A DNA stretch of 64,000 bases from the NCBI RefSeq assembly GCF_016906305.1, contig NZ_JADDOL010000016.1:1-64000 (forward strand), written 5' to 3'. The stretch comes from Alloalcanivorax marinus (GTDB lineage Bacteria; Pseudomonadota; Gammaproteobacteria; Pseudomonadales; Alcanivoracaceae). Positions 5,166 through 41,193 of the stretch are shown piece by piece (within the stretch, counting starts at the first letter, position 1; every line of letters begins with the position of its first letter). The notes below the pieces were generated by a model. The model saw only the letters and a program-made list of their open reading frames with translations, did no database searches and was not told the DNA's origin. Position numbers and translations under genes: made by a program.

Positions 5166-6275
5166 ATGCAACTCAACAGTATTGAAGAACTGATCGAGGA
5201 CATCCGTCAGGGCAAGATGGTGATCCTGATGGACGACGAGGACCGGGAAAACGAGGGCGACCTGGTGATGGCCGCCGAGCACGTGACCCCGGAAGCGATC
5301 AATTTCATGGCCAAATACGGTCGCGGCCTGATCTGCATGCCCATGTCCCGGGCCCGTTGCGAGCAGCTCGATCTGCCGCTGATGGTGCGCGCCAACGGCA
5401 GCGGCTTCGGCACCAAGTTCACGGTCTCCATCGAGGCCCGCGAAGGCGTCACCACCGGCATTTCCGCCGCCGATCGGGCGCGCACCGTGCAGGCCGCGGT
5501 GGCCCGTGACGCCAAGGCATCGGACATCGTCCAGCCCGGCCACATTTTTCCGCTGATGGCGGAGCCCGGTGGCGTGCTGCGCCGCGCCGGCCACACCGAG
5601 GCGGCCTGCGACCTGGCGGTGATGGCCGGCTGTGAAGCCGCCGGCGTGATCTGCGAGGTAATGAACGAAGACGGGTCCATGGCGCGCCGCCCGGACCTGG
5701 AGGCGTTCGCCGAGCAGCACGGCATCAAGATCGGCACCATCGCCGACCTGATTCAGTACCGGGCGCTCAACGAGCAGACCATCGAGCAGGTTTCCGAGCA
5801 CCCGCTGGACACCTGGTACGGTGAGTTCCGGCTGGTGGCCTTCAACGACACCGTGGACGGGCACCTGCACGTGGCGCTGGTGAAGGGCGAGATCCGGGAA
5901 GACAAGGAGGTGCTGGTGCGGGTGCATCAGGTGGACCCGCTGCGCGATCTGATGAGCGCCAAGCTGGACGGCCGCACCGGCTGGAACATGCACCGGGTGC
6001 TGGAAGCCCTGTCCGAGGCGGAGGCCGGCGTGGTGATCCTGCTGGCCCAGGACGAGGACGCGGAGCCCACCCTCAACCGCCTGCGGGCGTTCTTCGAGGG
6101 GCAGACCCAGGCGCCCAAGGGGCAGTCCCGGGCCTACCGCAATATCGGTACCGGCTCGCAGATTCTCAAGGCACTGGGTGTGCGCAAGATGCGCCTGCTC
6201 AGCTCGCCGATGCGCTTTAACGCGCTCTCCGGCTTCGGCCTGGAGATTACCGAATACGTGGAAGCGGACAGCTGA
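5166..6275 (+). CDS. ribB: 3,4-dihydroxy-2-butanone 4-phosphate synthase with degenerate GTP cyclohydrolase II domain (RibBX)
   Basis: The N-terminal domain (about residues 1-203) is a full DHBP synthase, making the four-carbon riboflavin precursor from ribulose 5-phosphate; [10 protein letters not shown] (residues 20-29) and [11 protein letters not shown] carry its active site. The C-terminal part (about 205-369) has the length and layout of GTP cyclohydrolase II but contains no cysteine at all. The segment that should hold the zinc-binding cysteines reads [17 protein letters not shown]. The domain is therefore very probably inactive for GTP, as in other RibBX proteins, and a separate RibA is expected elsewhere. 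It follows ribE by 31 bases. Confidence 0.93.
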
Positions 6276-6322
6276 CAGAGACGGCACTCGCGCGCCGCGC
6301 GGGCCAAAAAAGGAAACACGAC

Positions 6323-6793
6323 ATGCACGACATCAAGACCTTCGAAGGCACCCTGAACAACGTGGGCGGCCGTTACGCCCTGGTGGTGACCCGTTTCAAC
6401 AGCTTCGTGGTGGAAGCCCTGCTGGCCGGCGCGGTGGATGCCCTGGTGCGCCACGGTGTGAGCCGTGACGACATCGAAATCATCCGCGTGCCCGGTGCCT
6501 GGGAACTGCCGGTGGCGGTGAAGAACCTGCTGGCCAAGCGCGACTACGACGCGGTGGTGGCGCTGGGCGCGGTGATCCGTGGCGGCACCGCCCATTTCGA
6601 ATACGTGGCCGGCGAAGCGGCCAAGGGCCTGGCGGCGGTCCAGAACGACTCCGGCGTGCCGGTGGCGTTCGGCGTGCTGACCGTGGACAGCATCGAACAG
6701 GCCATTGAGCGCAGCGGTACCAAAGCCGGCAACAAAGGCGCGGAAGCCGCCCTGTCCGCGCTGGAAATGGTTTCCCTGCTCAAGGCGCTTTGA
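6323..6793 (+). CDS. ribH: 6,7-dimethyl-8-ribityllumazine synthase
   Basis: Lumazine synthase (156 residues) condenses the DHBP product with the ribitylaminopyrimidine to give the substrate of RibE, usually as a 60-mer or decamer. The binding motifs are clear: [40 protein letters not shown] (catalytic His near residue 92) and [14 protein letters not shown]. Its stop codon overlaps the nusB start as TGATG, coupling the two. Confidence 0.97.
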
Positions 6794-19603: not shown

Positions 19604-22600
19604 TTGCTGAGTCTATGGCAGCTCGGCCTGCTGGCCCTGTTGTATGTGATGGTGCTGTTCGTGATCGCCTGGTGGGGCGACCGTGCCGAGCGGCGCGGCC
19701 TGCCGGTGGTCAACAACGCCTGGACCTACAGCCTGGGGCTGGGGGTGTACTGCACCTCCTGGACGTTCTACGGGGCGGTGGGCGAGGCGGCCCACAGTGG
19801 CTGGACCTACCTGCCCATTTATCTGGGCCCGATTCTCACCATGCTGCTGGGTGGGGAGCTGATCTACAAACTGGTGTCGGTGGGCAAGCAGCACCACATC
19901 ACCTCCATCGCCGACTTCCTGGCGGCGCGCTACGGCAAGTCCCGGCAACTGGCGGTGCTGGTCACGGTGGTGGCCATCGTCGGCGTGCTGCCTTACATCG
20001 CCTTGCAGCTCAAGGCCGTGACCCTGTCCTTCGAACATGTGGTGGGCATCAACGCCACGCCGCCGCTGGACATCGCCCTGGCGGTGTCCGCCCTGATGGC
20101 GGTGTTCACCCTGCTGTTCGGCACCCGCCATATCGACGCCACCGAGCACCAGTCCGGGCTGATGCTGGCGGTCAGCTTCGAGTCCTTTATCAAGCTGGTG
20201 GCGTTCGTGATCATCGGCCTGTTCTGCCTGTTCGTGGTGTTCAACGGTCCTCTGGATCTGTGGCGCAACATGATGGCCTCGCCGCGGATTCGCGGCACCT
20301 TTGAACCGGCGCTGTTCTCGCAGAACTTCGTCACCGCGCTGCTGCTGTCGATGCTGGCGATTCTCTGCCTGCCCCGGCAGTTCCACGCCGGGGTGGTGGA
20401 GAACAACGACCTGCAGCATTTGCGCAAGGCGCGCTGGCTGATGCCGCTCTATCTGGGCTTGTTCGCCCTGTTCGTATTGCCGATCGTGGCCGCCGGCCTG
20501 CTCACCCAGTCCCACGGCGGGCCGGCGGACATGTACATGCTGTCGCTGCCCATGGCCACGGGCAACAACGGCATGATGCTGCTGGCCTTTATCGGCGGCA
20601 TCGCCGCGGCCACCGGCATGGTGATCATGTCGACCATGGCCCTGGCGATCATGCTCACCAACGAGGTGCTGATGCCGGCCTGGGTGCAGTATCGGATCCA
20701 GGGCGACGAGGAGCTCTCCGACCTGAGCAATCAGGTGCGTCTGCTGCGGCGGCTGAGCATCGTGGTGCTGCTGGCGCTGGCCTTTCTGTTCCACATTCTG
20801 ATCGACCGTTTCGAGGGCCTGGCGCGCATCGGTTTGTTGTCGTTCGCGGCGGTGGCGCAGCTGGCGCCGGCGCTGCTGGGCGGCCTGTACTGGCGGCGCG
20901 GCCATCAGAGCGGCGCCTTTGTCGGCCTGATCCTCGGTTTCCTGGTCTGGTTCTATTGCCTGCTGCTGCCGCTGGTGCTGCCGGTGAGCTGGGTGGACTA
21001 CCTCAACCAGAGCGGGCTGCTGGGCCTGGGCATTCTGCGGCCCTATGCTCTGTTCGGTATCGAGGGCCTGGAACCGCTCACCCACGGGGTGTTCTGGAGC
21101 CTGAGTCTGAACCTGCTGGCCTATGTGTCGTTCTCCCGCCGCGCCCGGCACAGTCCGCTGGACGAAACCCAGGCCACCCGCTTCGTCGATACCCCCACCG
21201 ACTGGTGGCGGGAGGGCATGGGCCACCCGCTGATCACCACCGGTGAACTGCTGCAGGTGTGCGAGCGGGGGCTGGGTCACCCCCGGGCCCGGCCGCTGTT
21301 CTTCGATTATCTGCACCGGCGTCAGATCTCCGAGGACCCGTCGCTGCCGGCGCCGCTGCATCTGGTGCGCTATGTGGAGCGCCTGCTGGCCGGCGCCATG
21401 GGCGCCTCCACCGCGCGCATCGTGATGGGCTCGCTGCTCAGCAAGCAGAGCGTGCGCCGCGACGACATGGTGCGGATCATGGACGAGGCGTCCCAGCTGA
21501 TTCAGTTCAACCATCAGCTGCTGCGCACCACCATCGAGACCATCAGCCAGGGCATCTGCGTGGTGGACCGGGACCTGAACATCGTCGCCTGGAACCAGGC
21601 CTACGTGGCCCTGTTCGGCTACCCGGAAGGTTTTATCCGGCTGGGCCGGCCCATCGAGGAGGTCTACCGGCACAACGCGGAGCGCGGCTTCTACGACGGC
21701 CGTGATCTGGATGAGGACGTGCGCAAGCGCGTGCAGCTGCTGCGCGAGGGCAGTGCCCACCGCTTCGAGCGGGAGCTGCCCAACGGCGTGATCGTCGAGG
21801 TGCGCGGTAACCCCATGGAAGGCGGCGGCTTCGTCAGTACCTATATGGACATCACCGAGCGTAAGCGCGACGAGATCGCCCTGCGTCAGATCAATGAGAA
21901 CCTGGAGCAGATGGTCTCCGAGCGCACCCGGCGTCTGTCCGAGGTGAACAGCCAGCTGGAGCAGGCCAACGAGGGCAAGACCCGCTTTCTGGCCGCCGCC
22001 GGCCACGACCTGATGCAGCCGCTCAACGCCGCCCAGCTGTTCGCCTCCTCCCTGGCCCAGCGGCTCGGCCAGCGCGGCGACGAGTTTGGCTATGAAAGGC
22101 AGGTGCTGGGCCATATCGACAGCTCCCTGCGCGCCGCCGAGCAGATCATCTCGGCGTTGCTGGAAATCAGCCGCCTGGACACCGGCACCATGCAGGCCCA
22201 TCCCTCGGTGGTGGCGGTGCGCCCGCTGATGGAACAGCTTGGCGAGGAATTCAGTGTGCTGGCCCGGGCCGAAGGGCTGGATCTGCACACCGTGTTCAGC
22301 GACCTGCGGGTGCGCACCGACGAGGCGTTGCTGCGGCGGGTGCTGCAGAATCTGCTGTCCAACGCGGTGCGCTACACCGAGCGGGGGCGGGTGCTGTTCG
22401 GCTGCCGCCGGCGGGGCGACACCCTGCGCATCGAAATCTGGGACACCGGCCCGGGCATCCCGGAGGATCAGCACACCCGGGTGTTCCATGAGTTCATGCG
22501 GTTGCCGCAGCAGGGGCGCCGGCAGGTGAAGGGCCTGGGCCTGGGGCTGGCCATCGCCGACCGCATCTGCCGGCTGCTCGGGCATCGCATCACGGTGGAC

Positions 22601-24088: not shown

Positions 24089-24487
24089 TCAGTCCAGGTC
24101 GGCGGGGTAAACGCCGTTTTCGTCGTGGACTTCCTTGCCGCTCAGCGGGGGGGTGAAGGCGCAGGCCACCACCATGTCTTCGTTCTCGCCACCGTAGAGA
24201 TAGTGCTCGTCGTGCTGGTCGAGCAGATAAATGGTGCCGGGGGTGAGTTCGTGCACATCCCCGCTCTCGACCATCTCGATTTTGCCCTTGCCGGAAATCA
24301 CATAGACGGATTCCCAGTGGTTGGCGTATTTGATGTGGGTTTTGGTGCCCTTGAAGATGGTGGTGATGTTGAAGGAATGGCCCATGCCATCTTCCTTCAG
24401 GGACAGGCGCACGGACTGCCAGTTGCCGTTCTCGGCGACCACGCGACGTTCCGTTTTTTCAGCTTCCGCCAGGGTACGAACAATCAT
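24089..24487 (-). CDS. ectC: L-ectoine synthase
   Basis: EctC (132 residues) is a cupin that cyclises N-gamma-acetyl-diaminobutyrate to ectoine. The typical start MIVRTLAEAE, the iron-binding cupin residues around HIKYANHWESVYVISGKG and the segment LLDQHDEHYL are present. The ATG at 24487 has GGAGG upstream. It is the last gene of the ect operon but is separated from ectB by a strong terminator hairpin, so its level may depend on readthrough. Confidence 0.97.
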   Translation of the reverse strand: MIVRTLAEAEKTERRVVAENGNWQSVRLSLKEDGMGHSFNITTIFKGTKTHIKYANHWESVYVISGKGKIEMVESGDVHELTPGTIYLLDQHDEHYLYGGENEDMVVACAFTPPLSGKEVHDENGVYPADLD

Positions 24488-24524
24488 CTGGACCTCCAAA
24501 GGATTGGAATAAAGGGAAAGGGAT

Positions 24525-24553
24525 AAAAAACCGGCCGCCGGGAAGGCGGCCGG
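24525..24553 (-). terminator. intercistronic terminator between ectB and ectC
   Basis: On the minus strand CCGGCCGCC (24553-24545) pairs with GGCGGCCGG (24539-24531) and is followed by six T residues (24530-24525). It has the full form of a rho-independent terminator yet sits inside the operon, 16 bases past the ectB stop and 38 before the ectC start. Confidence 0.8.
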
Positions 24554-24568
24554 TGTCGGCGTTTTGAA

Positions 24569-25924
<1,356 letters not shown>

Positions 25925-25941
25925 TCAGGCGTTCTTCGCGT

Positions 25942-26484
25942 TCAGGCGTCGTCCCGGTTGAACGGGCCGATCCGCAGAAGGTGTTCATCGTTGTGCTGCC
26001 CGGCGAAGTGGATGCGCGAGTCGAACAGGATGAACTCCTCGGTGGGCATCCGCCGCTCATAGGCGAAGCTGCGGAACATGCCCCAGGATGCTTCATTATC
26101 CGGGGTGATGGTGGTGTCGATGAACTGCACGTCCCGGCTCTCGTCCCGCTCGATCAGGTTGGCCAGCATGCGCTTCGCCAGACCGTGACCGCGGGCCTTG
26201 GCGTGCACCGCCACCTGCCACACGAACAGGGTGTTCTGCTGTTTGGGCGGGATGTAGCCGGAAATAAAACCCACCAGTTCGCCGTCCATCTCGGCCGCCA
26301 CGGAGGTGTCCGCGAAGTGCGTGCACTGCAGCAGGTTGCAGTACACGGAGTTCTCGTCCAGCGGCTTGCACTCGGCGATCAGCTTGTGCACGCGTGGGCC
26401 GTCCTGACTTTCAGGCTTGCGCAGAATGATCTCTTTTTTGATGTCGGCGGGGGTCGAGGCCCCTTTTTGATCGTCTGATGGCAT
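25942..26484 (-). CDS. ectA: L-2,4-diaminobutyrate N-acetyltransferase
   Basis: EctA (180 residues) is a GNAT enzyme that acetylates the gamma-amino group of diaminobutyrate. The acetyl-CoA site is seen in VWQVAVHAKARGHGLAKRML, and the family features VYCNLLQCTHF and FVSGYIPP-like GFISGYIPPK are present. I prefer the ATG at 26484 over a GTG nine bases upstream, because GGAAG lies at better distance. Five bases separate it from the ectR stop. Confidence 0.96.
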   Translation of the reverse strand: MPSDDQKGASTPADIKKEIILRKPESQDGPRVHKLIAECKPLDENSVYCNLLQCTHFADTSVAAEMDGELVGFISGYIPPKQQNTLFVWQVAVHAKARGHGLAKRMLANLIERDESRDVQFIDTTITPDNEASWGMFRSFAYERRMPTEEFILFDSRIHFAGQHNDEHLLRIGPFNRDDA

Positions 26485-26489
26485 TCGGT

Positions 26490-27026
26490 TCACTTCCGGT
26501 CAGGTTGATAGGATGAAGAGTCGCGACGCCGGCGCTGGCCGTCGCCGTTGGGCTGGATGCGGTCGATGGCGCCCAGATCCAGCACCGGCGAGGCGTCGAT
26601 GTCGCCGGCGTTCATCATCGCCGCGACACGCTGCAGCGAGCTGAGAATCAACGACTGCTCCCAGTCCTCGAGCCGCTCGAAGCGGGCCATGAACTCGTCC
26701 TGAAGCGGCGTCGGGGCCCGCTCCATGATGTCGCGGCCGGCCGTGGTCAAATAAGCATAGACCCGCCGTTTGTCCCGTTCACCCCTTTTGCGCTCGATCA
26801 AGCCGCGCTTCTCGAGGCGATCGAGGATGGTGGTCACGGTGGCCTGGCTGACCGACACCTCCGTGGCGATGTCCCCCATGGTCATCTCACCCCGCGAGGC
26901 AATCGCCTGCAGGATCAGCAGCTGGGGCGCCGTGAGGCCGGCGACCTTGCTCAGCTTGCGCGAGTAAAGGTCGGTGGCGCGGATGATTTGGCGTAGAGCA
27001 ATCAGCACTTCGTCGTGTCGGGCCAT
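26490..27026 (-). CDS. ectR: MarR-family regulator of ectoine synthesis (EctR-like)
   Basis: This 178-residue MarR-family protein is the first gene of the ect operon. Its winged helix reads GLTAPQLLILQAIASRGEMT, then VSVSQATVTTILDRLEKRGL and the wing GERDKRRVYAYLT. EctR1 proteins of halotolerant methylotrophs repress ectABC at low salt, and this protein is the same type by sequence style and position. The C-terminal 25 residues are Arg/Ser/Asp-rich. The gene lies immediately upstream of ectA in the same direction, which implies autoregulation of the whole operon. Confidence 0.85.
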   Translation of the reverse strand: MARHDEVLIALRQIIRATDLYSRKLSKVAGLTAPQLLILQAIASRGEMTMGDIATEVSVSQATVTTILDRLEKRGLIERKRGERDKRRVYAYLTTAGRDIMERAPTPLQDEFMARFERLEDWEQSLILSSLQRVAAMMNAGDIDASPVLDLGAIDRIQPNGDGQRRRRDSSSYQPDRK

Positions 27027-31556: not shown

Positions 31557-32519
31557 ATGAAGCGCGATAGTGGTGCAGATACCACCAAATCCATGCCCGA
31601 TGTGGCGACCAATTCCATGGTGGACCACCTTCACAGCACCCTGGACTGGGTCGGCATGAGCGAGATACATCTGCCCGCCCGGATCAGCGACACCCTGGCC
31701 GGCGAACGGCCGGTGAGCACCTCCATCCAGGCCTACGTGAGCCTGTCCAATCCGGACGCCAAGGGCATTCACATGTCCCGGCTGTACCTGATGCTGGAGG
31801 AGACGTTCGGGGACCACTCGGTGAGCGCTCACTCCATCGAGACGCTGCTGGATAACTTCCTGGATACCCACGACGGCCTCAGCGACAAGGCCTTCGTGCA
31901 GTTCGATTTTGAATACTCCATGCGCCGCCCGGCCCTGAAGAGCAGCTACGCCGGCTGGAAGAGCTACCCGGTGACCATCAAGGCCACCAAGGCGCCGGAC
32001 GGCCTGCGCATCGAGCTGGCCGTGGAAGTGCCGTACTCCTCCACCTGCCCCTGCTCCGCGGCTCTGGCCCGGCAGTTGATTCAGGAGCAGTTCCGCGAGG
32101 ACTTCGGCAAGGACAGCCAGGTGGACGTGGACAAGGTGTTCGAATGGCTGGGCACCGAGGAAGGCATCATGGCCACGCCGCACAGCCAGCGCTCCGTGGC
32201 CCAGGTGCGGGTGCTGCTGGATGCCGGCTGTGACGAGGCGTTCCCGATCACCGCGCTGATCGACACCATCGAGGGCGCCCTGAAGACGCCGGTGCAGACC
32301 GCCGTGAAGCGGGTGGACGAGCAGGAGTTCGCCAAGCTCAACGGTCAGAACCTGATGTTCTGCGAGGACGCCGCCCGGCGCCTCAAGCAGGCCCTGGACC
32401 CGCAGCCGTGCTATCAGGATTTCTGGCTGCGCGTGAATCACCTGGAAAGCCTGCACGCCCACAACGCCGTGGCGATCGTCACCAAACAGGTGGATGGCGG
32501 CTATCTGCCGATTCCCTGA
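31557..32519 (+). CDS. folE2: GTP cyclohydrolase I, FolE2 type (IB)
   Basis: FolE2 (320 residues) makes dihydroneopterin triphosphate for folate synthesis. Unlike zinc-dependent FolE it can work with other metals. The family signature is complete, including [16 protein letters not shown] near the N-terminus, the metal-site cysteine in [14 protein letters not shown] (near residues 158-171) and [16 protein letters not shown]. In many proteobacteria folE2 is a Zur-controlled zinc-sparing gene. Its place beside zinc-related genes fits, but I see no Zur box in the 220 bases upstream, so it may also be the sole housekeeping enzyme. Confidence 0.95.
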
Positions 32520-32542
32520 TTCATCGCCCGCACACCGGCCAT

Positions 32543-32574
32543 AAAAAAGCCGCGCTCTTCAGCGCGGCTTTTTT
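32543..32574. terminator. bidirectional terminator between folE2 and the porin-like gene
   Basis: AAGCCGCGCT (32547-32556) pairs with AGCGCGGCTT (32561-32570) across a CTTC loop, flanked by A and T runs that give U tails on both strands. Confidence 0.92.
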
Positions 32575-32599
32575 GTGCCCGCGGTCGCGGGTGGCGGGT

Positions 32600-33130
32600 T
32601 CAGAACCTGCCGTTCAGACCCACGCCGATGTTGTTGATCTCATCGCCGCCGCTGTCCACCGCGCGCAGATACTCCACGCTCAGGAACACCACGTCGGTGA
32701 GACTGATGTCGGCGCCCAGGCCCAGGGACAGGCCGCTGTAGTTGTCGCCGCTGGAGCCGCCGTCGGGGTAGTCAACGGTGGTTTCCACGCGGGTCAGCCC
32801 GATCAGGCCGTAGGGGCGCACCGGCAGGGTATTGGGGAACTGGCCACGGAAATAGGCGCCGTAGTAGCGGTCGATTTCCACGTCAACGCCACCGCCCAGG
32901 CTGTCGTCGCCGATGCCCAGGCCCAGGCGCAGCTCGCCGCCCAGGGTTTCGTTGCGATTGATCCAGCTGCCGAACTTGAATTGCAGAGCGGAGGGATCGG
33001 CGCTGCCGCCGTGATCGGGATTGATGTCCGCGCTGACGTAATCCAGGCCGGCGTAGCCCGCCGCCAGTACCGGGGCGGACAGAACGGAAAAGGGCAGGGC
33101 AAGGCCAGCGGCCAACAGCCATCGTTTCAT
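32600..33130 (-). CDS. small outer-membrane beta-barrel protein
   Basis: This 176-residue protein has a signal peptide cut near residue 23 (VLA-AGYAG), alternating hydrophobic strands and a C-terminal phenylalanine (NIGVGLNGRF), all marks of an eight-stranded outer-membrane barrel. Relatives are the OmpA-like or OprG-like small porins of unknown cargo. It stands between folE2 and the zinc genes and is separated from both by terminator or REP hairpins, so a link to zinc is only positional. Confidence 0.8.
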   Translation of the reverse strand: MKRWLLAAGLALPFSVLSAPVLAAGYAGLDYVSADINPDHGGSADPSALQFKFGSWINRNETLGGELRLGLGIGDDSLGGGVDVEIDRYYGAYFRGQFPNTLPVRPYGLIGLTRVETTVDYPDGGSSGDNYSGLSLGLGADISLTDVVFLSVEYLRAVDSGGDEINNIGVGLNGRF

Positions 33131-33222
33131 GGGAGACTCCGAGTTCCACTGCTTTGAGGACGAGACTCATTGTAGTGAAAAGCGGTGCCCATGGCGACGC
33201 GGCAAGAGGGGCGACGCGGTGT

Positions 33223-33277
33223 ATCGCGGCTAAAGCCGCTCCTACAACAATATCGTAGGAGCGGCTTTAGCCGCGAT
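33223..33277. repeat. REP element, 23-bp perfect inverted repeat
   Basis: Arms at 33223-33245 and 33255-33277 are perfect inverted copies around a nine-base loop. The arm core GTAGGAGCGGCTTTAGCC is the well-known Pseudomonas-type REP sequence. It lies in the 158-base gap between the aztD-like gene and the barrel gene. No REP-associated transposase is in the window. A decayed relative lies at 8774-8811. Confidence 0.92.
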
Positions 33278-33288
33278 CAGGCCGACGA

Positions 33289-34596
33289 TCAATGCTCGTG
33301 ATCGTGGTCGCCGTCTTCCCCGCCGTGGTCATGGGCCGCCACGGTGCCGGTCCAGGCCAGCCCGGTGGGGGCGAAGTCCAGATCCACGGTGTCCACCGAC
33401 AGCGCTTCCAGATCGACGATGTGCAGGGCCCGTGCCGCCGGGTCGCTGACGAACGCCTGGTCACCGCTGCCGCTCACCGCCAGCGTCGGCGCCGGGCCGG
33501 CACCGGGAACCGTGTCGAGCAGGGCCAGGGCGGCGCGGTGGGACCAGTCAGAGGTCTCCAGCACGTGCAGGTCGCCCTCGCTGTCCAGCACCAGCAGATG
33601 CTCACCGTGAGCGTCGAACGCCTGGGCCTTCGGTGCCACCGGGGCGCCGCCGCCGTCCACGGCGCCGTCCCGCCAGTCCACCTGGGTGGCGGTGCCCGCC
33701 TCCGGGTCGATGGCGTACAGGTTGCCATCCGGGTAGGACACGCCGATCAGCGCTTCCACGTCCGGGTGGCCCAGCACCGTGGCGATTCGCTCCGGCACCG
33801 CCACCTTGGCGTCGTGGAAATGGTCGCCGTGCAGTTCCGCCACCAGCACCCCGTCCTGGCAACCGAAGACACTGTAGACGCCGTGGCTGGCGGCGCCGTG
33901 CAGGCCCGGGCAGGCGGTGGCCAGCTCGCCCTCGCCGTGGAAATGATCGCCGTGCAGTTCGAACACCGTGACGCCGTCCGCCGGGCCGCCGCTGGTGGCG
34001 GCATGGCTGGCCAGCACCAGCCCCTCCTGGGGCTCGGCCACGCCGTGGTGGGCGGTGTCCAGGGTCTGGGACGCCAGCACGCCACCGTCGGTGAGGCTTT
34101 CGTCGCTGAACAGCTGGAAGCGGCTCATCTGCGCGGTGGCACTGTCGCCGTCAAAGTAGAGGGCGGCGTGTTCACCGTTGACCCGGTAGTGGGTGGGGGC
34201 CACGCCGTTCAGGGTGAAGCCGAGCATGGACGGCGCGTCTTCGTGCACGTGGTCGTCGTGCAGATGGATGCCGCTGTCCAGGAATTCCACCTGATCGTTG
34301 TCGCGCTGCACGATGACCGCGTAGCGGCCTTCGGGGCTGGTGTAGACGCCGGTGGCCGGGTGCACCAGGGCGAAATCGTTGATCGTTTCGCCGCTTTCCA
34401 GGTCGTGCACATAGACCCTTGAGTTGGCGCCGTCGGCGTGGGTGAACACCAGCCGGCCGGCGGCTTCGCCGTGTTCATGCTCGTGATCGTGGTCGTCGCC
34501 GGGCAGCTCGGTGCTGCCGGTGTCGTTGTTACAGGCGGCAAGCAGCACCGAGGCCGCCAGCAGGGCGGCGCCGGTGGGAGAAAAATAGCGTTTCAT
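33289..34596 (-). CDS. AztD-like zinc metallochaperone lipoprotein, histidine-rich
   Basis: This 435-residue lipoprotein (lipobox LLAAC, Cys22) has His clusters near the N-terminus (HDHEHEH, 36-42) and at the C-terminus (GDHDHEH). In between is a beta-propeller-like repeat pattern with conserved features of the AztD family: SGIHLHDDHVHED, GDHFHGEGELA and AHHGVAEP. AztD hands zinc to the periplasmic binding protein of the AztABC importer in Paracoccus. Here no AztABC is adjacent; instead the gene follows a ZnuD-like receptor by 34 bases. Being a lipoprotein rather than soluble is unusual for what I know of AztD. Confidence 0.8.
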   Translation of the reverse strand: MKRYFSPTGAALLAASVLLAACNNDTGSTELPGDDHDHEHEHGEAAGRLVFTHADGANSRVYVHDLESGETINDFALVHPATGVYTSPEGRYAVIVQRDNDQVEFLDSGIHLHDDHVHEDAPSMLGFTLNGVAPTHYRVNGEHAALYFDGDSATAQMSRFQLFSDESLTDGGVLASQTLDTAHHGVAEPQEGLVLASHAATSGGPADGVTVFELHGDHFHGEGELATACPGLHGAASHGVYSVFGCQDGVLVAELHGDHFHDAKVAVPERIATVLGHPDVEALIGVSYPDGNLYAIDPEAGTATQVDWRDGAVDGGGAPVAPKAQAFDAHGEHLLVLDSEGDLHVLETSDWSHRAALALLDTVPGAGPAPTLAVSGSGDQAFVSDPAARALHIVDLEALSVDTVDLDFAPTGLAWTGTVAAHDHGGEDGDHDHEH

Positions 34597-34630
34597 CGTG
34601 GTCTCCGAATTCGTTTTTCAGTGGATCGCG

Positions 34631-36703
34631 TCAAAAGGTCATGCGCACGCCGGCGGTCAGGTTGCGACCGGGTTCCGGGACGGTGCGCGCCAGGAAGGAC
34701 GCGTGGTTCCACACTTCCTCGCCGAGCAGATTGCTGGCCCGCAGGAAGACGTTGTATTGGGGTTGGCCGGTGAAGGTGTAGCTCACCGTGGCATTGAGCA
34801 TGTCGTGGCCCGGGGTGCGGGTCTCGAAAGCGGCGATGTCGTCCTGGGCGAACACCCGGTAGAACTCCACTTCGCCGTCGAACGCGCGCCAGAAGGTGTT
34901 CACCCGGGCGCCCAGACGGTGGGCCGGGATGCGCGGCAGGCTGTCGCCGCCGTCCTTGAACTCCCCGCGTACCGTGTCGCCGAACAGGGTGGTGGAGAAG
35001 CGTTCGGTCCACTGGTAGGTGGCCTCGGCCTCGGCGCCGGTGAATTCCACGTCCGCCTGGCTGTACTTGATCAGGCGGAATTCCTCGATCTGATCCAGGG
35101 TGCGGGCATAGACGTAGTCGTTCACCCGGTTGTGGAACAGGCCCAGGTCGAAGGTCAGGTCGCCACTCACCTTGCGCAGGTTGATGCCGGCGTTGTAGGA
35201 GGTCTCGGTCTCCAGACCGGCGTCGTTGCCGGCGCCGCCGCAGGTGAAGCTATCGGCGAGCAGGCCGCACTCATAGGTGTTGGTGGCCAGATGCACGCCG
35301 CGCGCGTAGACCTCCTGGGCCTGGGGCAGCCGCTCGGAACGGGCCAGGGACACGGACACGTTGTAGTCCGGGCGGAATGCCCAGGTCAGCGCCGTGGACA
35401 GGGAGGTGGCGGACTCGCTGTAGGAAGGCAGCGGCCGGTCGGCGTCGTCCGGGTCCAGCTTCTGATGTTCGAAGCGGGCGCCGGCTTCCAACTGCCAGCG
35501 CTCGTTGAAGCGGTAACGTTCCACGGCGAACACCGCCGCGGTGCGGGTGTCGGTTTTCGGTACCACCGCTTCCTCGCCGCTGGTCTCGATCTGGCCGTCG
35601 GTGATCTGGGTGCCGAAGGTACCGCGCCAGCCGAGGATCGGCGCGTGCTCCGCTTCCACCCGGGCGTCCACGCCCCGGTGCCGGAAGGTGGTGCCGATCA
35701 CGTCTTCCTCGATCTCGTGGTGGCGATAGTCGGTGTGGCTGGCGCGCAGGCGTACCGCCTCGATGCCGGCCACCGGCTGCCGGTATTCGCCGCGCAGGTC
35801 CACCCGGCGGCTGTCCAGGTCCACGAACGGGGCCTCGTGGGCACCGTGTTCGTGGTCGTGCTCTTCCTCGGCGCACTCCAGGGTGGCGCCGTTGGCGGTG
35901 CAGCCCTCGAACTCGTGGCTGTGACCGGGCAGGCCGTACTGGTCGCCCCGATAGGAGTAGGCCAGACCCAGGTAGCCCCGGTCGCCGATCCAGGACAGGC
36001 CGACGCTGCCGTTGTTGCTTTCCGCCCAGGTGCCGTCGATGGTCGGATCGGTGAAGCCGTTGACCTCGTAGTCGTCCGCGTCCCGGCGGGCGCCTTCCAC
36101 GTGCAGGGCCAGGTTTTCACCGGCGCGGGTGGTCAGGCCGAAGGCGGCGGCGGCTTCATCGGCCACGGTGTTGCCGCGACCCTCGAAGAACCCTTCCACC
36201 GGTCCGTCCGGCATGCGGGTGGGAATCTTGTTGTCGAGCACATTGACCACGCCGCCGATGGCGCCGCCGCCGTAGAGCAGGGTGGACGGGCCGCGCAGCA
36301 CTTCCACCTTGCGGCTGAGCATGGGCTCCACGGTGGTGGCGTGGTCCGGCGAGATGGCGGACATGTCGAACAGCTGGGCACCGTCGGACAGCACGCTGAC
36401 CCGGGGCGCGGTCTGGCCGCGAATCACCGGCCGGCTGCTGCCGCCGCCGAAGGTGTCGGAATGCACGCCGGGCAGGCCGTTGAGGGTGTCGCCCAGGGTC
36501 GCTTCGCTTTGCTGGAACAGCAGTTCGTCTTCCAGCAGGTCGTAGGACGCCGGGGTCAGATTGGCGTCGCTGCCCAGGGGCAGGGCGGACACTTCCACCG
36601 CGTCGAGGCGGTTTTCGTTGGAGTCAGCGGGCTGGGCAAACGCCACGGGCCCGCCCACGGCGGCCAGGGTGGCGGCCGCCATGGGGAAAATTACGCGTTT
36701 CAT
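34631..36703 (-). CDS. znuD: TonB-dependent outer-membrane receptor, ZnuD-like (zinc uptake)
   Basis: This 690-residue receptor has a signal peptide (1-23), a TonB-box region (VEVSALPL, about 37-44), a plug domain (about 60-170, with RGPSTLLYGGGAIGGVVNVLDN) and a 22-strand barrel ending in F. An external loop carries HSHEFEGC and EEEHDHEHGAHE (about 261-291), where His residues lie between two cysteines. Such a His-rich loop is typical of ZnuD zinc receptors. Copper or heme receptors are alternatives but lack this loop. The next gene downstream is the AztD-like chaperone. Confidence 0.85.
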   Translation of the reverse strand: MKRVIFPMAAATLAAVGGPVAFAQPADSNENRLDAVEVSALPLGSDANLTPASYDLLEDELLFQQSEATLGDTLNGLPGVHSDTFGGGSSRPVIRGQTAPRVSVLSDGAQLFDMSAISPDHATTVEPMLSRKVEVLRGPSTLLYGGGAIGGVVNVLDNKIPTRMPDGPVEGFFEGRGNTVADEAAAAFGLTTRAGENLALHVEGARRDADDYEVNGFTDPTIDGTWAESNNGSVGLSWIGDRGYLGLAYSYRGDQYGLPGHSHEFEGCTANGATLECAEEEHDHEHGAHEAPFVDLDSRRVDLRGEYRQPVAGIEAVRLRASHTDYRHHEIEEDVIGTTFRHRGVDARVEAEHAPILGWRGTFGTQITDGQIETSGEEAVVPKTDTRTAAVFAVERYRFNERWQLEAGARFEHQKLDPDDADRPLPSYSESATSLSTALTWAFRPDYNVSVSLARSERLPQAQEVYARGVHLATNTYECGLLADSFTCGGAGNDAGLETETSYNAGINLRKVSGDLTFDLGLFHNRVNDYVYARTLDQIEEFRLIKYSQADVEFTGAEAEATYQWTERFSTTLFGDTVRGEFKDGGDSLPRIPAHRLGARVNTFWRAFDGEVEFYRVFAQDDIAAFETRTPGHDMLNATVSYTFTGQPQYNVFLRASNLLGEEVWNHASFLARTVPEPGRNLTAGVRMTF

Positions 36704-36778
36704 GGTCTCTCCTGGATACAGGCACGGCCGGGGCGTTACGCCTGGACGGTCCGTGTGAACAACATCAAAGGGTCGTGA

Positions 36779-37069
36779 TCAGGAGAAAACCGGTGGGGCG
36801 CGGGCGGGGTGCACCCGGGGGCGCGGAAGATCGGGGGCGCCCACCGGATAAGGGACGGTGAGCGGGGGGGTGAAGCGTGCCGGCGGCAGATCGGCCACCG
36901 GCGAGCAGGCCAGGCCGTGGCCGTGCAGCGCCTGACAGTCCTGCTGAGCGACCGGGCCGTGGCCATGGCCGTCGAGAATGTGGCTGGGGCCATGCCAGAC
37001 CACCAGGGTCTGCGCCACCAGCAGCAGGGCGGCGAGCAGCAGATGACGACGCAGGCGGCGCTCAGTCAT
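36779..37069 (-). CDS. small His/Cys-containing membrane-anchored protein, unknown function
   Basis: This 96-residue protein has one hydrophobic N-terminal segment (about residues 8-25), then a short region rich in His and Cys ([23 protein letters not shown]) and a Pro-rich tail. It resembles the DUF2946-like proteins often found beside metal TonB receptors, which may bind metal in the periplasm. It overlaps the yidD stop region by eight bases and precedes the receptor gene by 75. Function is inferred from context only. Confidence 0.65.
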
Positions 37070-37292
37070 GGTCGGTCTCGCGGCCGGGGACCGGGTCGAA
37101 CCCGCCCGGGTGCCAGGGGTGGCATTTGCAAAGCCGCCGGGCCGCCAGGGCGCTGCCGCGCAGGCTGCCATGGGTCTCCACCGCCTGCCGGGCGTACTCC
37201 GAGCAGGTCGGATAGAAGCGGCACTGGTTGCCCACCCAGGGGCTGAGCACCAGTTGGTAAAACCGCAGACCGGCAAGCAAAACGGGTTTCAC
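37062..37292 (-). CDS. yidD: membrane protein insertion efficiency factor YidD
   Basis: YidD (about 76 residues) is a small amphipathic protein that helps YidC-dependent membrane insertion. The family core is clear: [20 protein letters not shown] with [12 protein letters not shown] and [13 protein letters not shown]. The start is uncertain: a GTG at 37292 gives the usual length, while a TTG at 37322 would add ten residues. yidD normally lies between rnpA and yidC; here it stands in a zinc-related gene run, so it may be a second copy. Confidence 0.82.
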
Positions 37293-37340
37293 GGCGACAT
37301 CCGCAGACGGAGGTGAATTCAACGGCGCATCATAAACCGA

Positions 37341-37358
37341 ACACTATAACAAAAACCA
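37341..37358 (-). promoter_or_regulatory. candidate promoter element upstream of yidD with GTTATA half-site
   Basis: On the minus strand this reads GGTTTTTGTTATAGTGTT. TATAGT could be a -10 box, and GTTATA is the left half of a gammaproteobacterial Zur operator. The right half does not match (TGTTCGG instead of TATAACA) and there is no good -35. It lies in the only sizeable gap (about 100 bases) between cysS and the receptor genes. Confidence 0.22.
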
Positions 37359-37394
37359 GCACGGCCCCCGCCCGCTTTCCGCCCGGCGCCGGCC

Positions 37395-38780
37395 TCAGCC
37401 CCGGGTCCAGCGGGTGCCTTCGCGGGTGTCCTCGAGCTGGACGCCGGCGTTCTTGAGCTGGTCGCGGATCTCGTCGGCGCGGGCGAAATCCCGGTCTTTC
37501 TTGGCCTGATTGCGCTCTTCCACCAGGGCATCGATGGTGGCGCTGTCCAGCTCATCCTCGCCGCCGCCCTGTTTGTTCTGGAACCAGCCGGTGGGGTCGG
37601 CCGCGAGCAGACCCAGCAGGCCGGCGCCGGCCAGCAGTTCCGCCTTCAGGGCCGGTTTGTCGTCCGGCTCCGCCTTGTTCAGGCGGGCGGCCACCGCGTG
37701 CAGGGCGCTGATCGCCTCGGCGGTGTTCAGATCGTCGAGCAGGGCGGTGACCACCGGGTGGTCATCGGGCAGCCGGTAGTCCGGATCGGCGCGCACGATA
37801 CGGCCCCGGCCCAGCAGGGCGTAGTAGAGCGAGTCCAGGCTGCTGCGGGCCTGCTCCAGCAGCTCCACGGAAAAATTCAGCGGCGAGCGGTAGTGGCTGG
37901 ACAGCAGCGCGAAGCGCAGCACCTCACCGGGGTAATGCTGGAGCAGATCGCGCACCAGCCGGAAGTTGCCCAGGGACTTGGACATCTTCTCGCCGTCGAT
38001 ATTGATGTAGCCGTTGTGCATCCAGTAGCGCACGTACTCGGTGCCGTGGGCGCAGCAACCCTGGGCGATCTCGTTTTCGTGGTGCGGGAAGATCAGGTCC
38101 TGGCCACCGCCGTGGATGTCGATCACATCGCCCAGATGACGGTGGATCATGGCCGAGCATTCGATGTGCCAGCCCGGGCGGCCGCGCCCCCAGGGCGAGT
38201 CCCAGCCGGGCTGGTCGGCCTCGCTGGGCTTCCACAGCACGAAGTCGCCCGGATGGCGTTTGTAGTCCGCCACTTCCACCCGGGCCCCGGCCAGCATGTC
38301 TTCCAGGTTGCGCCCGGAGAGCTTGCCGTAGTCGGGCATGGACTCCACCGCGAACAGCACGTGGCCCTGGGACTCGTAGGCGTGGCCCTTGGCGATCAGC
38401 GTTTCGATCATGGCGATCATGTCGCCGATATGATCGGTGGCCAGCGGGGTGATCGACGGCTCCAGCGCCCCCAGGGCGGCCATGTCCTCGCGGAAGGCGG
38501 CGGTGAAGCGGCCGGTCAGGGCTTCCATGGATTCGCCGGTGTCGGCGCAGGCGTTGATGATCTTGTCGTCGATGTCGGTGATGTTGCGGGCGTAGACCAC
38601 CTTGGGATACAGCCGTGCCAGCAGCCGATAGAGCACGTCGAACACCACCACCGGGCGGGCGTTGCCGATGTGGACGTAGTTATAGACCGTGGGTCCGCAC
38701 ACATAGAGCGTCACGCGCTCCGGATCCAGCGGCTGGAAAACGTCCTTCTGCCCGGTGAGGGTGTTGTGCAGTGTCAGCAT
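37395..38780 (-). CDS. cysS: cysteinyl-tRNA synthetase, alphaproteobacteria-like paralogue
   Basis: This 461-residue class-I synthetase charges tRNA-Cys. The zinc ligands C28 (YVCGPT), the Cys in WHIECS and His/Glu in FPHHENE are present, as is [10 protein letters not shown]. The ATP signature reads HIGN and the N-terminal stretch [18 protein letters not shown] is of the alphaproteobacterial style, whereas usual gammaproteobacterial CysS has CGMTVYDYCHIGH. It is next to hisI and thrS in one direction rather than near ppiB or folD. A paralogue expressed at low zinc is the likely role; this needs a genome-wide check for a second cysS. Confidence 0.93.
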
Positions 38781-38802
38781 GGAACAGGCACTTCGTCCGT
38801 GG

Positions 38803-39231
38803 TCAGTTTTTATAAAGGTCCGCCGGGTCGATCAGCGGCGTTTTGTCGATGGTGGCGCGGTCGCCGTCGAGCTTCCAGTAAAAGCAGTCCCGGCGCCCGG
38901 TGTGGCAGGCCGGGCCGGTTTGTTCCACCCGCGCCAGCAGCACGTCGCCGTCGCAGTCCGCGCGCAGTTCGCGCAGGGTCTGTACCTGGCCGGAGGATTC
39001 CCCCTTGCGCCACAGAGTGCGCCGCGAGCGCGAGTAATAACAGACCCGGCCGGTACGCAGGGTTTCCTCGATGGCCTCCCGGTTCATCCAGGCGAACATC
39101 AGCACCTCGCCGGTGTCGTGTTGCTGGGCGATCACCGGAATCAGGCCGGCGTCGTTGTACGCCAGATCATCCAGCGCCTCGCCCAGCGATACGCTGAACC
39201 CTTCCGCCTGCTGCTCGTTCTCTTTGAACAT
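38803..39231 (-). CDS. hisI: phosphoribosyl-AMP cyclohydrolase
   Basis: HisI (142 residues) opens the adenine ring of phosphoribosyl-AMP in histidine synthesis. The zinc cysteines are all present in [16 protein letters not shown] and [13 protein letters not shown]. The usual hisI partner hisE is absent, and no other his gene is nearby. Extra hisI copies are known beside zinc-starvation genes, which matches the setting between cysS and thrS (22 and 45 bases apart). GGAGG precedes the ATG. Confidence 0.93.
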
Positions 39232-39276
39232 CGTGCCTCCTGCCTGGCCGCCGCAGGAGCGACGACATCGGGGCCG

Positions 39277-41193
39277 TCAGATCGGTGCGCGGGTGGCCTG
39301 GGCCAGCTGTTCCACCGCCTCTTCCAGGGACAGCTCCTCGGTGTCCTTGGAGCCCAGGCTGCGAATCGCCACCTTGCGCTCCTGGGCTTCCTTCTCGCCG
39401 ACCACCCAGATGCGCGGGGTCTTGGTGCGGGAATGCTCGCGCACCTTGAAGCCGATTTTCTCGTTGCGGGTATCCAGCTCCGCCGGAATGCCCTTGGCCT
39501 TGAGCAGCGCCACCGCCTCGGCGGCGTAATCGTCCACCGCGTTGGTGATGGTGCACACCGCCACCGGAGTGGGCGCCATCCACAGCGGCAGATGGCCGGC
39601 GGTGGATTCGATCAGAATGCCCAGGAAGCGCTCCAGGGAGCCCAGCACCGCACGGTGCAGCATCACCGGACGCTGGCGGGAGCCGTCCTCGGCCACGTAT
39701 TCCGCGTCCAGGCGCTCGGGCAGCACGAAGTCCACCTGCAGGGTGCCGCACTGCCAGTCCCGCCCGATCGCATCGCGCAGCACGAACTCCAGTTTCGGCC
39801 CGTAGAAGGCACCTTCGCCCGGGTTCAGTTCGCATTCCAGGCCCAGGGATTCCACCGCGTCGCGCAGCGCCGCCTCGGCCTTGTCCCAGGTCTCGTCGGA
39901 ACCGGCCCGCTTCTCCGGACGGTCGGAGAACTTGATGCGGAATTCCTGAAAGCCGAAGTCCTCGTAGACCTCGCGCAGCATCTGGATGAAGGTGGCGGTT
40001 TCCGGATTGACCTGGGCTTCGGTGCAGAAGATGTGGGCGTCGTCCTGGCTGAACGAACGCGCCCGCATCAGCCCGTGCAGGGCGCCGTGGGCCTCGTTAC
40101 GGAACAGGGCGGTGAACTCGCCCAGGCGAATCGGCAGGTCCCGGTAGCTTTTGATGCCCTGGTTGAAGATCTGCACGTGGCCGGGGCAGTTCATCGGCTT
40201 GATGGCCATTTCCCGGTGGTCGTGGGTGCAGACGGTGAACATGTCGTCGCCATATTTGTCCCAGTGGCCGGACTTCTCCCACAGGATGCGGTCCATCATC
40301 TGCGGCGTGGACACTTCCTCGTAGCCGTATTTGACCATCTTGTCGCGGATGTAGTTTTCCAGGTTCTTGCGCAGTCGCCAGCCCTTGGGGTGCCAGAACA
40401 TGCTGCCCACCGCTTCCTGCTGGATATGGAACAGGCCCATCTCCCGGGCCAGTTTGCGGTGGTCCCGCTTTTCCGCTTCCTCAAGCTGCTTGAGGTAGAC
40501 GTTGAGTTCCTTCTTGTCCCGCCAGGCGGTGCCGTAGACGCGCTGCAGCTGGGCGTTGTCGGCGTTGCCGCGCCAGTAGGCGCCGGCCACCTTCATCAGC
40601 TTGAAGCCGTCGCCGAGCTTGCTGGTGGAGGGCAGGTGCGGGCCCCGGCACAGGTCGATGAACTCGCCCTGGCGGTACAGGGATACTTCCTGGTCGGCGG
40701 GCAGCTCACGGATGATTTCCGCCTTGAAGTCCTCGCCCTTATCCAGGAAGAAACGGACCGCCTCGTCCCGGTCCCAGACCTCCCGGCGGATGTCCTCGTT
40801 GCGGCGGACGATCTCCTGCATGCGCTTCTCGATGGCCTGCAGGTCTTCCGGCGTGAACGGGGCCTCCCGGTGGAAGTCGTAATAGAAACCGTTCTCGATG
40901 GTCGGCCCGATGGTCACCTGAGTATCGGGAAACAGCTCCTGGACCGCCTCCGCCATCACATGGGCGGCGTCATGGCGAATCAGCTCCAGGGCGTCTTCAT
41001 GGTCCCGGGTGATGATTTCCACTTCGGTCCCGTCGGTGAGCGGCAGATAGACGTCGGTCAGGCGCCCGTTGGCCTTCACGGCCAGCGCCTGCTTGGCGAG
41101 TTTCTTGCTGATCCGCTCGGCGATCTCCAGGGCGGAGGCCGGCTGATCAAACTCCAGGGTTGCCCCGTCGGGCAGTCGGTATTGCGCGCTCAT
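39277..41193 (-). CDS. thrS: threonyl-tRNA synthetase, probable paralogue
   Basis: This 638-residue class-II synthetase charges tRNA-Thr. A TGS domain (about 1-62), the editing domain with HDAAHVMAEAVQELFPDTQV, the catalytic core and the anticodon-binding domain are complete. Zinc ligands C336 (NCPGH), H387 (DDAHIF) and H513 (MLHRA) remain. The gene is not followed by infC-rpmI-rplT, the usual partners of housekeeping thrS; hisI and cysS follow instead. The TGS and editing segments look closer to alphaproteobacterial ThrS. I read it as a zinc-stress paralogue. The ATG at 41193 starts MSAQYRLPDG. Confidence 0.92.
   Translation of the reverse strand: MSAQYRLPDGATLEFDQPASALEIAERISKKLAKQALAVKANGRLTDVYLPLTDGTEVEIITRDHEDALELIRHDAAHVMAEAVQELFPDTQVTIGPTIENGFYYDFHREAPFTPEDLQAIEKRMQEIVRRNEDIRREVWDRDEAVRFFLDKGEDFKAEIIRELPADQEVSLYRQGEFIDLCRGPHLPSTSKLGDGFKLMKVAGAYWRGNADNAQLQRVYGTAWRDKKELNVYLKQLEEAEKRDHRKLAREMGLFHIQQEAVGSMFWHPKGWRLRKNLENYIRDKMVKYGYEEVSTPQMMDRILWEKSGHWDKYGDDMFTVCTHDHREMAIKPMNCPGHVQIFNQGIKSYRDLPIRLGEFTALFRNEAHGALHGLMRARSFSQDDAHIFCTEAQVNPETATFIQMLREVYEDFGFQEFRIKFSDRPEKRAGSDETWDKAEAALRDAVESLGLECELNPGEGAFYGPKLEFVLRDAIGRDWQCGTLQVDFVLPERLDAEYVAEDGSRQRPVMLHRAVLGSLERFLGILIESTAGHLPLWMAPTPVAVCTITNAVDDYAAEAVALLKAKGIPAELDTRNEKIGFKVREHSRTKTPRIWVVGEKEAQERKVAIRSLGSKDTEELSLEEAVEQLAQATRAPI

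Follow-up and report, generated by a model that had tools for sequence, protein, structure and literature searches.

The first 64,000 nucleotides of contig NZ_JADDOL010000016.1 of Alloalcanivorax marinus (the whole stretch analysed here, called the window) contain a locus at 31557-41193 in which genes for zinc uptake lie among genes for zinc-binding enzymes, and the question is whether these enzymes are spare versions for growth at low zinc. A sequence-only reading had described the locus as a zinc-starvation island, with thrS, hisI, cysS and folE2 as types known among zinc-sparing or zinc-buffering paralogues and with a presumed shared low-zinc control. The window represents contig C8 of a 4.05-Mb genome (56 contigs, 99.99% complete). 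The neighbourhood proved to be real and conserved, and it includes a zinc-uptake module; its reading as an island of spare enzymes for low zinc was mistaken. The locus is probably a conserved Alcanivoracaceae housekeeping scaffold carrying an inserted zinc-uptake module, and its enzymes are not low-zinc spares. The scaffold would comprise thrS-hisI-cysS-yidD and, further on, a small outer-membrane protein gene (omp) with a divergent folE2, and the inserted module would comprise a DUF2946-like protein, the receptor ZnuD and the chaperone-like protein AztD. This explanation removes a tempting but wrong annotation.

Copy number and zinc ligands of the enzymes

The threonyl-tRNA synthetase (ThrRS; thrS, 39277-41193, minus strand), phosphoribosyl-AMP cyclohydrolase (hisI, 38803-39231, minus), cysteinyl-tRNA synthetase (CysRS; cysS, 37395-38780, minus) and membrane-insertion efficiency factor (yidD, 37062-37292, minus) all score above their curated cut-offs, and each is the sole copy in the genome. 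One full cysS match (422 bits) was obtained in the genome search; three weaker matches (23-27 bits), of which two marginally exceed the Pfam cut-off of 27 bits, span 44 to 61 of 301 positions and lie in long open reading frames (ORFs) which look like other synthetases. For thrS there was one match above the cut-off and three below it (27-71 bits), and hisI and yidD were each found once. A single full-length cysS match was also present in 38/38 genomes, with further matches of at most 25 bits, and a single above-cut-off thrS in 23 of 24; none was found in G018, where a contig end cuts the cluster. Because no second copies were found, and cysS and thrS are single in the relatives too, these four genes are regarded as housekeeping genes. 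The zinc-sparing paralogues are thus ruled out by copy number, and the "copies" of cysS, hisI and thrS announced by the sequence-only reading do not exist: the search for second copies of these genes and of yidD, and for folE, returned none, an outcome which, for cysS, thrS and hisI, that reading had itself set against its proposal.

The zinc-independent type of GTP cyclohydrolase is encoded by folE2 (31557-32519, plus strand; 324 bits vs a cut-off of 215), and no match to folE was detected at E ≤ 0.001 in this 99.99% complete genome. Since no folE was found, FolE2 would take the place of FolE permanently and not only in low zinc, and folate synthesis probably depends on it continuously.

By alignment to solved structures, CysRS contains the residues matching E. 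coli Cys28, Cys209, His234 and Glu238, ThrRS those matching Cys334, His385 and His511, and HisI three conserved Cys, all of which we take to be the zinc ligands. Intact ligands alone do not decide the sparing question, because the Zur-regulated CysRS, ThrRS and HisI paralogues also keep theirs, according to the parts of Haas et al. (2009; PMC2770081) drawn on here; copy number decides it. The best explanation, in which we are fairly confident as a whole, is that the thrS, hisI and cysS products are the only copies in the cell, bind zinc, and are zinc consumers and not substitutes. As a separate observation, thrS of G002 (L128, 4014-5924) is a mosaic of which roughly the first third has 86-95% DNA identity to the window and the rest 63-78%; the hisI beside it is ~90% identical to the window. 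This mosaic is the only thrS above the cut-off in its genome and keeps the zinc-site motifs.

Conservation of the locus

The seven collinear leftward genes near folE2 reported by the sequence-only reading were confirmed in order and type by ORFs and family scans. The order thrS-hisI-cysS-yidD-znuD-aztD-omp with divergent folE2 is found in 13/13 genus genomes (the window and the 12 congeners fetched), and its retention in all 12 congeners shows that the grouping is not due to chance. The small His/Cys protein gene was not detected in four of these congeners (G005-G008), and unrelated or extra genes lie between cysS and yidD in several. In other genera thrS-hisI-cysS is kept, mostly with yidD and omp. 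There the yidD-omp gap holds a porin-AztC-like-AztB-like cassette in G015, G016, G020, G022 and G024, znuD-aztD in G014 and both cassettes in G019; in G017 and G021 an AztC-type cassette lies on the far side of thrS. Counted together, 22 of the 25 family genomes have a zinc-import cassette of one of these two kinds adjoining the block. The porin-like protein preceding the AztC/AztB-like genes in several genera (L137, 10733-12031, and relatives) has a His-rich stretch and is a candidate zinc porin; its G019 member had no NCBIfam match at E ≤ 0.001 and no Pfam match at E ≤ 0.01.

Beyond the family, 13 order-level genomes (G025-G037) were considered and the stretches around cysS were fetched for nine of them, G026, G027, G031 and G035 being left out. 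Neither thrS nor hisI was matched beside cysS in these nine, and cysS-yidD was present without zinc genes in two (G029, G030). No paper combining thrS, hisI, cysS and zinc was found in the open-access library searched.

The zinc-uptake module

The receptor gene (34631-36703, minus strand) encodes a ZnuD-type TonB-dependent protein. Its best model, by far, among 24 was ZnuD NF038289, matched over nearly its full length with 670 bits, which is below the NCBIfam ZnuD cut-off of 950 bits. The protein aligns with Neisseria ZnuD (4rdr) in two long stretches and has a His-rich insert. In this alignment the high-affinity site Asp99, His100, Glu340 and His499 is matched at SPDHA, YRHHE and GVHLATNT; the chain numbering of 4rdr is shifted by 14, as derived by hand from 241-HSHEYDDCHAD-251 in the relevant part of PMC4557270.

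The next gene (33289-34596, minus) encodes an AztD-like periplasmic zinc chaperone, a predicted lipoprotein with His-rich tails. Its score of 101 bits with NF038015 lies under the 400-bit cut-off, so on sequence it is a distant relative outside the curated AztD family. An AlphaFold2 model had a predicted local distance difference test score (pLDDT) of 86 and a predicted template-modelling score (pTM) of 0.82. In a Foldseek search of the PDB, nine AztD chains ranked 1-9 (E 6e-23 to 2e-20), with the next match at 2e-11; the modelled protein is thus predicted to have the AztD beta-propeller fold. AztD site 1 (His124, His167, His218) aligns with His136, His183 or His184, and His233, and these residues, together with the pair Cys229/Cys246, are identical in 11/11 aligned sequences (the window and ten others). 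The same is true of His113, His116 and the C-terminal His435. For site 2, with His99, His102, Asp104 and the C-terminal His408 as reference, the spacing His99/His102/Asp104 can be matched by His113, His116 and position 118 (His or Asp), and the HMMER alignment differs by two residues, placing His99 against Asp115. Residues of a suitable kind are thus present at this turn, in one of two possible registers. The sequence-only reading is therefore supported as regards zinc uptake by a pair consisting of the ZnuD-type receptor and the chaperone of the AztD family, before which a Zur-type box lies in 5/12 congeners, or before yidD in G014.

No aztABC genes lie beside the aztD-like gene. The genome search detected no AztC and only one PF01297 (ZnuA-family) protein, on C1, which scored 95.8 bits as ZnuA and 82.5 bits as AztC, both under cut-off. 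As this is the only protein of its family, the genome lacks the AztC with which AztD is partnered in Paracoccus. The parts of two reports drawn on here state that Paracoccus AztD does not transfer zinc to ZnuA (PMC6689063) and that it appears to serve as a periplasmic zinc reservoir (PMC7731109). Because no AztC was found, the receiver in A. marinus would be the single ZnuA, or AztD would be a reservoir. No paper naming both AztD and ZnuD was found in the open-access library searched.

The module begins with a small secreted His/Cys protein of 96 aa (36779-37069, minus), whose gene overlaps the 3' end of yidD. Of its relatives, the four scanned all match DUF2946 weakly, with E-values between 2.9e-4 and 0.045 that miss the Pfam cut-off, and the window's own protein had no DUF2946 match. 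Between aztD and folE2 lies omp (32600-33130, minus), which encodes a small outer-membrane beta-barrel protein and is a conserved neighbour in the family. A repetitive extragenic palindromic (REP)-like element is located between aztD and omp (33222-33277), its arms at 33222 and 33255 being TATCGCGGCTAAAGCCGCTCCTAC and its complement, and similar elements occur at the corresponding place in L014, L015 and L017. Two unusual aztD genes were also observed, both in metagenome-assembled genomes. In G010, aztD (C1:933719-934900) is split into two overlapping matches, one to residues 1-219 and the other to residues 248-435, which points to a frameshift or sequencing error. In L020 of a Moraxellaceae (5303-6616, plus), znuD is followed by a 437-aa AztD-like ORF, circularly permuted in one open frame: a lipoprotein signal, a part matching query ~262-424, a His-rich linker and then ~42-258. 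This is one sequence, possibly mis-assembled; upstream of the znuD ORF of L020, ~0.7 kb away, is a Zur-type box of 33.7 bits.

Transcription units and Zur boxes

The block is best divided into three units: thrS-hisI-cysS with housekeeping functions, yidD-DUF2946-like-znuD-aztD for zinc uptake, and divergent folE2. One seven-gene operon is not supported, as opposite-strand genes lie between cysS and yidD in several relatives; in L018 and L019 a shared transcript is unlikely for this reason. Upstream of yidD, 12/25 aligned rows contain a TATGAT or TATCAT element (by eye), which suggests that yidD has its own promoter. The GTG at 37292 is very probably the start codon of yidD, in preference to the TTG at 37322. 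In the cluster, a sigma-70 scan returned one match vs 1.0 expected and was uninformative.

A Zur-like Fur-family protein is encoded behind the ZigA GTPase (698 bits) on C55, outside the locus in the window. The plain pattern GTTATNNNATAAC with up to two mismatches occurs once in the 64-kb window, at 20314, vs 2.17 expected by chance, and not in the cluster; the sequence-only reading had likewise failed to find a full Zur box there. The form GTTATnnnATAAC, published for Caulobacter Zur boxes (in the part of PMC4176598 drawn on here), has its only perfect match in the genome before a ZrgA-type gene, and boxes of this form lie before zigA (one mismatch) and znuA (two mismatches). In the 13 genus genomes there are 25 perfect sites, of which 24 were fetched, and 21 of these 24 are near zinc-linked genes by our own count, which includes some only weakly similar receptors. 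A Zur matrix was then built from 20 related, non-independent sites; the sites of L110, L113 (two) and L114 were dropped beforehand, and L118-L122 and L134 were kept as a test set. Strong boxes were found before znuD in G001, G005, G006, G007 and G008 and before yidD in G014, which belongs to another genus. Judging from these relatives, Zur probably acts before znuD or yidD.

In the 22 family genomes scanned, neither hisI nor cysS is preceded by a strong box, nor is folE2 in the 18 genomes where it lay in the scanned stretch. The only strong site before thrS (G021, 31 bits) is between thrS and a divergent zinc-import cassette, to which it belongs at least as plausibly. In the window itself no Zur box precedes thrS, hisI, cysS or folE2. 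Its best matrix score over 64 kb, 5.6, falls before yidD (37333-37355, minus), in the promoter corresponding to the boxed one of G014, where the half-site GTTAT is kept. This score was reached by 6/100 whole-window shuffles, 1/2000 local 120-base shuffles and 5/2000 shuffles of the 60-base core, and an own-genome scan of 99,915 bases gave seven positions at or above 5.5, true boxes included. We read the site as a decayed or weak operator, a candidate only. Of the low-zinc control proposed earlier, the matrix scan leaves a weak site before yidD and strong boxes in six relatives; with no strong site before hisI, cysS and folE2 in the genomes scanned, control of the whole block is not supported.

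Proposed function and competing explanations

We hypothesize that ZnuD imports zinc across the outer membrane, as its family and conserved ligands suggest, and that the AztD-like lipoprotein binds periplasmic zinc and passes it on, to the single ZnuA, or stores it. The module in the window is probably expressed from the yidD promoter, and in five congeners znuD would have its own Zur-boxed promoter. Zur would repress the module when zinc is ample, as indicated by the boxes in relatives and the weak site in the window. Several observations weigh against this explanation. The box pattern is no more frequent than its reversed control (25 vs 22 sites in the genus, 56 vs 81 over 25 genomes), and because site number does not exceed the control, the evidence for the boxes is their position. 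The yidD site is weak compared with the weakest accepted own-genome site (10.6, leave-one-out), and the corresponding sites of G003, G011 and G012 score -1.0, -14.2 and -3.3. Fifteen genomes carry znuD-aztD in the cluster, and nine of these have no strong box there, nor have the porin-AztC-AztB cassettes of G015, G016, G019, G020, G022 and G024 in the fetched stretch. Three of the 25 family genomes yielded no cassette: G013, G023 and G018, in which the cluster meets contig ends.

A rival view takes the locus for a starvation island in which Zur controls zinc-sparing paralogues, like the clusters that Haas et al. (2009) described for Cupriavidus and Pseudomonas; this is highly improbable. Its gene types match the Zur-regulated HisI, CysRS and ThrRS paralogues and FolE2 described in the parts of that study drawn on here (PMC2770081), and the intact ligands are compatible with it, but it is contradicted by the copy numbers, with sole cysS, thrS and hisI and no folE for FolE2 to replace, and by the lack of strong Zur-type sites before hisI, cysS and folE2 in the genomes scanned. 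On the other hand, there could well be no functional tie at all, the yidD-omp gap being a permissive place which happens to receive zinc cassettes; we give this little less than an even chance. The occurrence of thrS-hisI-cysS without a cassette in G013 and G023, of cysS-yidD alone in G029 and G030, and of unrelated genes between cysS and yidD in several relatives agrees with it. It has to account for zinc-import genes in the gap or on the far side of thrS in 22/25 genomes, and no other yidD-omp cargo was noted among the ORFs examined, small ORFs aside. A purely neighbourly arrangement is compatible with a housekeeping scaffold carrying an inserted module; it differs from the supply-and-demand linkage considered next.

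In that linkage, zinc import would be kept beside the sole zinc enzymes through selection for joint expression or inheritance, which we consider unlikely. The same 22/25 genomes, with DUF2946-like/ZnuD/AztD or porin/AztC/AztB cassettes in the gap and AztC-type ones beyond thrS in two, speak for it, as does the G021 box between thrS and the divergent cassette. However, a single ancestral site of insertion, together with local rearrangement, would account for the location, the znuD-aztD pair also occurs without thrS, hisI and cysS in a 10.4-kb Moraxellaceae contig, and no shared promoter was seen. A broader proposal is speculative and only slightly less doubtful: an Alcanivoracaceae supply-and-demand island in which cassettes are kept beside the sole ThrRS, CysRS and HisI, YidD was drawn into a Zur-controlled operon in at least one genus, and ZnuD-AztD works without AztABC. 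If true, it would tie zinc entry to essential zinc consumers. Two features of the housekeeping scaffold with its inserted module, the explanation that we prefer, are worth following: ZnuD paired with AztD in the absence of AztABC, and the recurrent position of zinc-import cassettes next to sole zinc enzymes. Elsewhere in the window, an ectoine-synthesis-like gene set runs leftward at 24089-26493; its EctC-, EctB- and EctA-like proteins were named by eye, and the gene names are presumed.

Comparison with known systems

The locus resembles the Zur-regulated paralogue clusters in that FolE2, CysS, HisI and ThrS types are clustered with zinc genes, and it differs in that the window enzymes are sole copies and that ZigA and the zur-like gene are elsewhere (C55), as compared with the parts of Haas et al. 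(2009; PMC2770081) drawn on here; that study included Alcanivorax borkumensis. The Zur-regulated TonB receptors ZnuK and ZnuL of Caulobacter (PMC4176598) share the box form, e.g. GATGTTATATCATAACAAT before znuK, whereas no AztD or housekeeping block is mentioned in the part of that paper on these receptors. Most of the window receptor, plug as well as barrel, aligns with Neisseria meningitidis ZnuD (PDB 4rdr), and the four high-affinity residues and the His-rich insert are matched; the differences are the score of 670 vs the 950-bit cut-off and the AztD-like gene which follows the receptor. The closest comparison for the chaperone is AztABCD of Paracoccus denitrificans. The AztD-like protein shares with AztD (PDB 6ck1) the beta-propeller fold (template-modelling score of 0.72-0.74 on the query), the pore-site His triad, the disulphide Cys pair, the C-terminal His and a His/Asp cluster at the site-2 turn. 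However, identity in the structural match is 23-24%, site-2 Gly100 is not kept, and the A. marinus protein has a lipoprotein signal. Moreover, the genome has no adjacent aztABC and a single ZnuA-family protein, and the partner gene is ZnuD. The genome in which this AztD-type chaperone accompanies a ZnuD receptor has no detected AztC, so that the chaperone's partner would be new.

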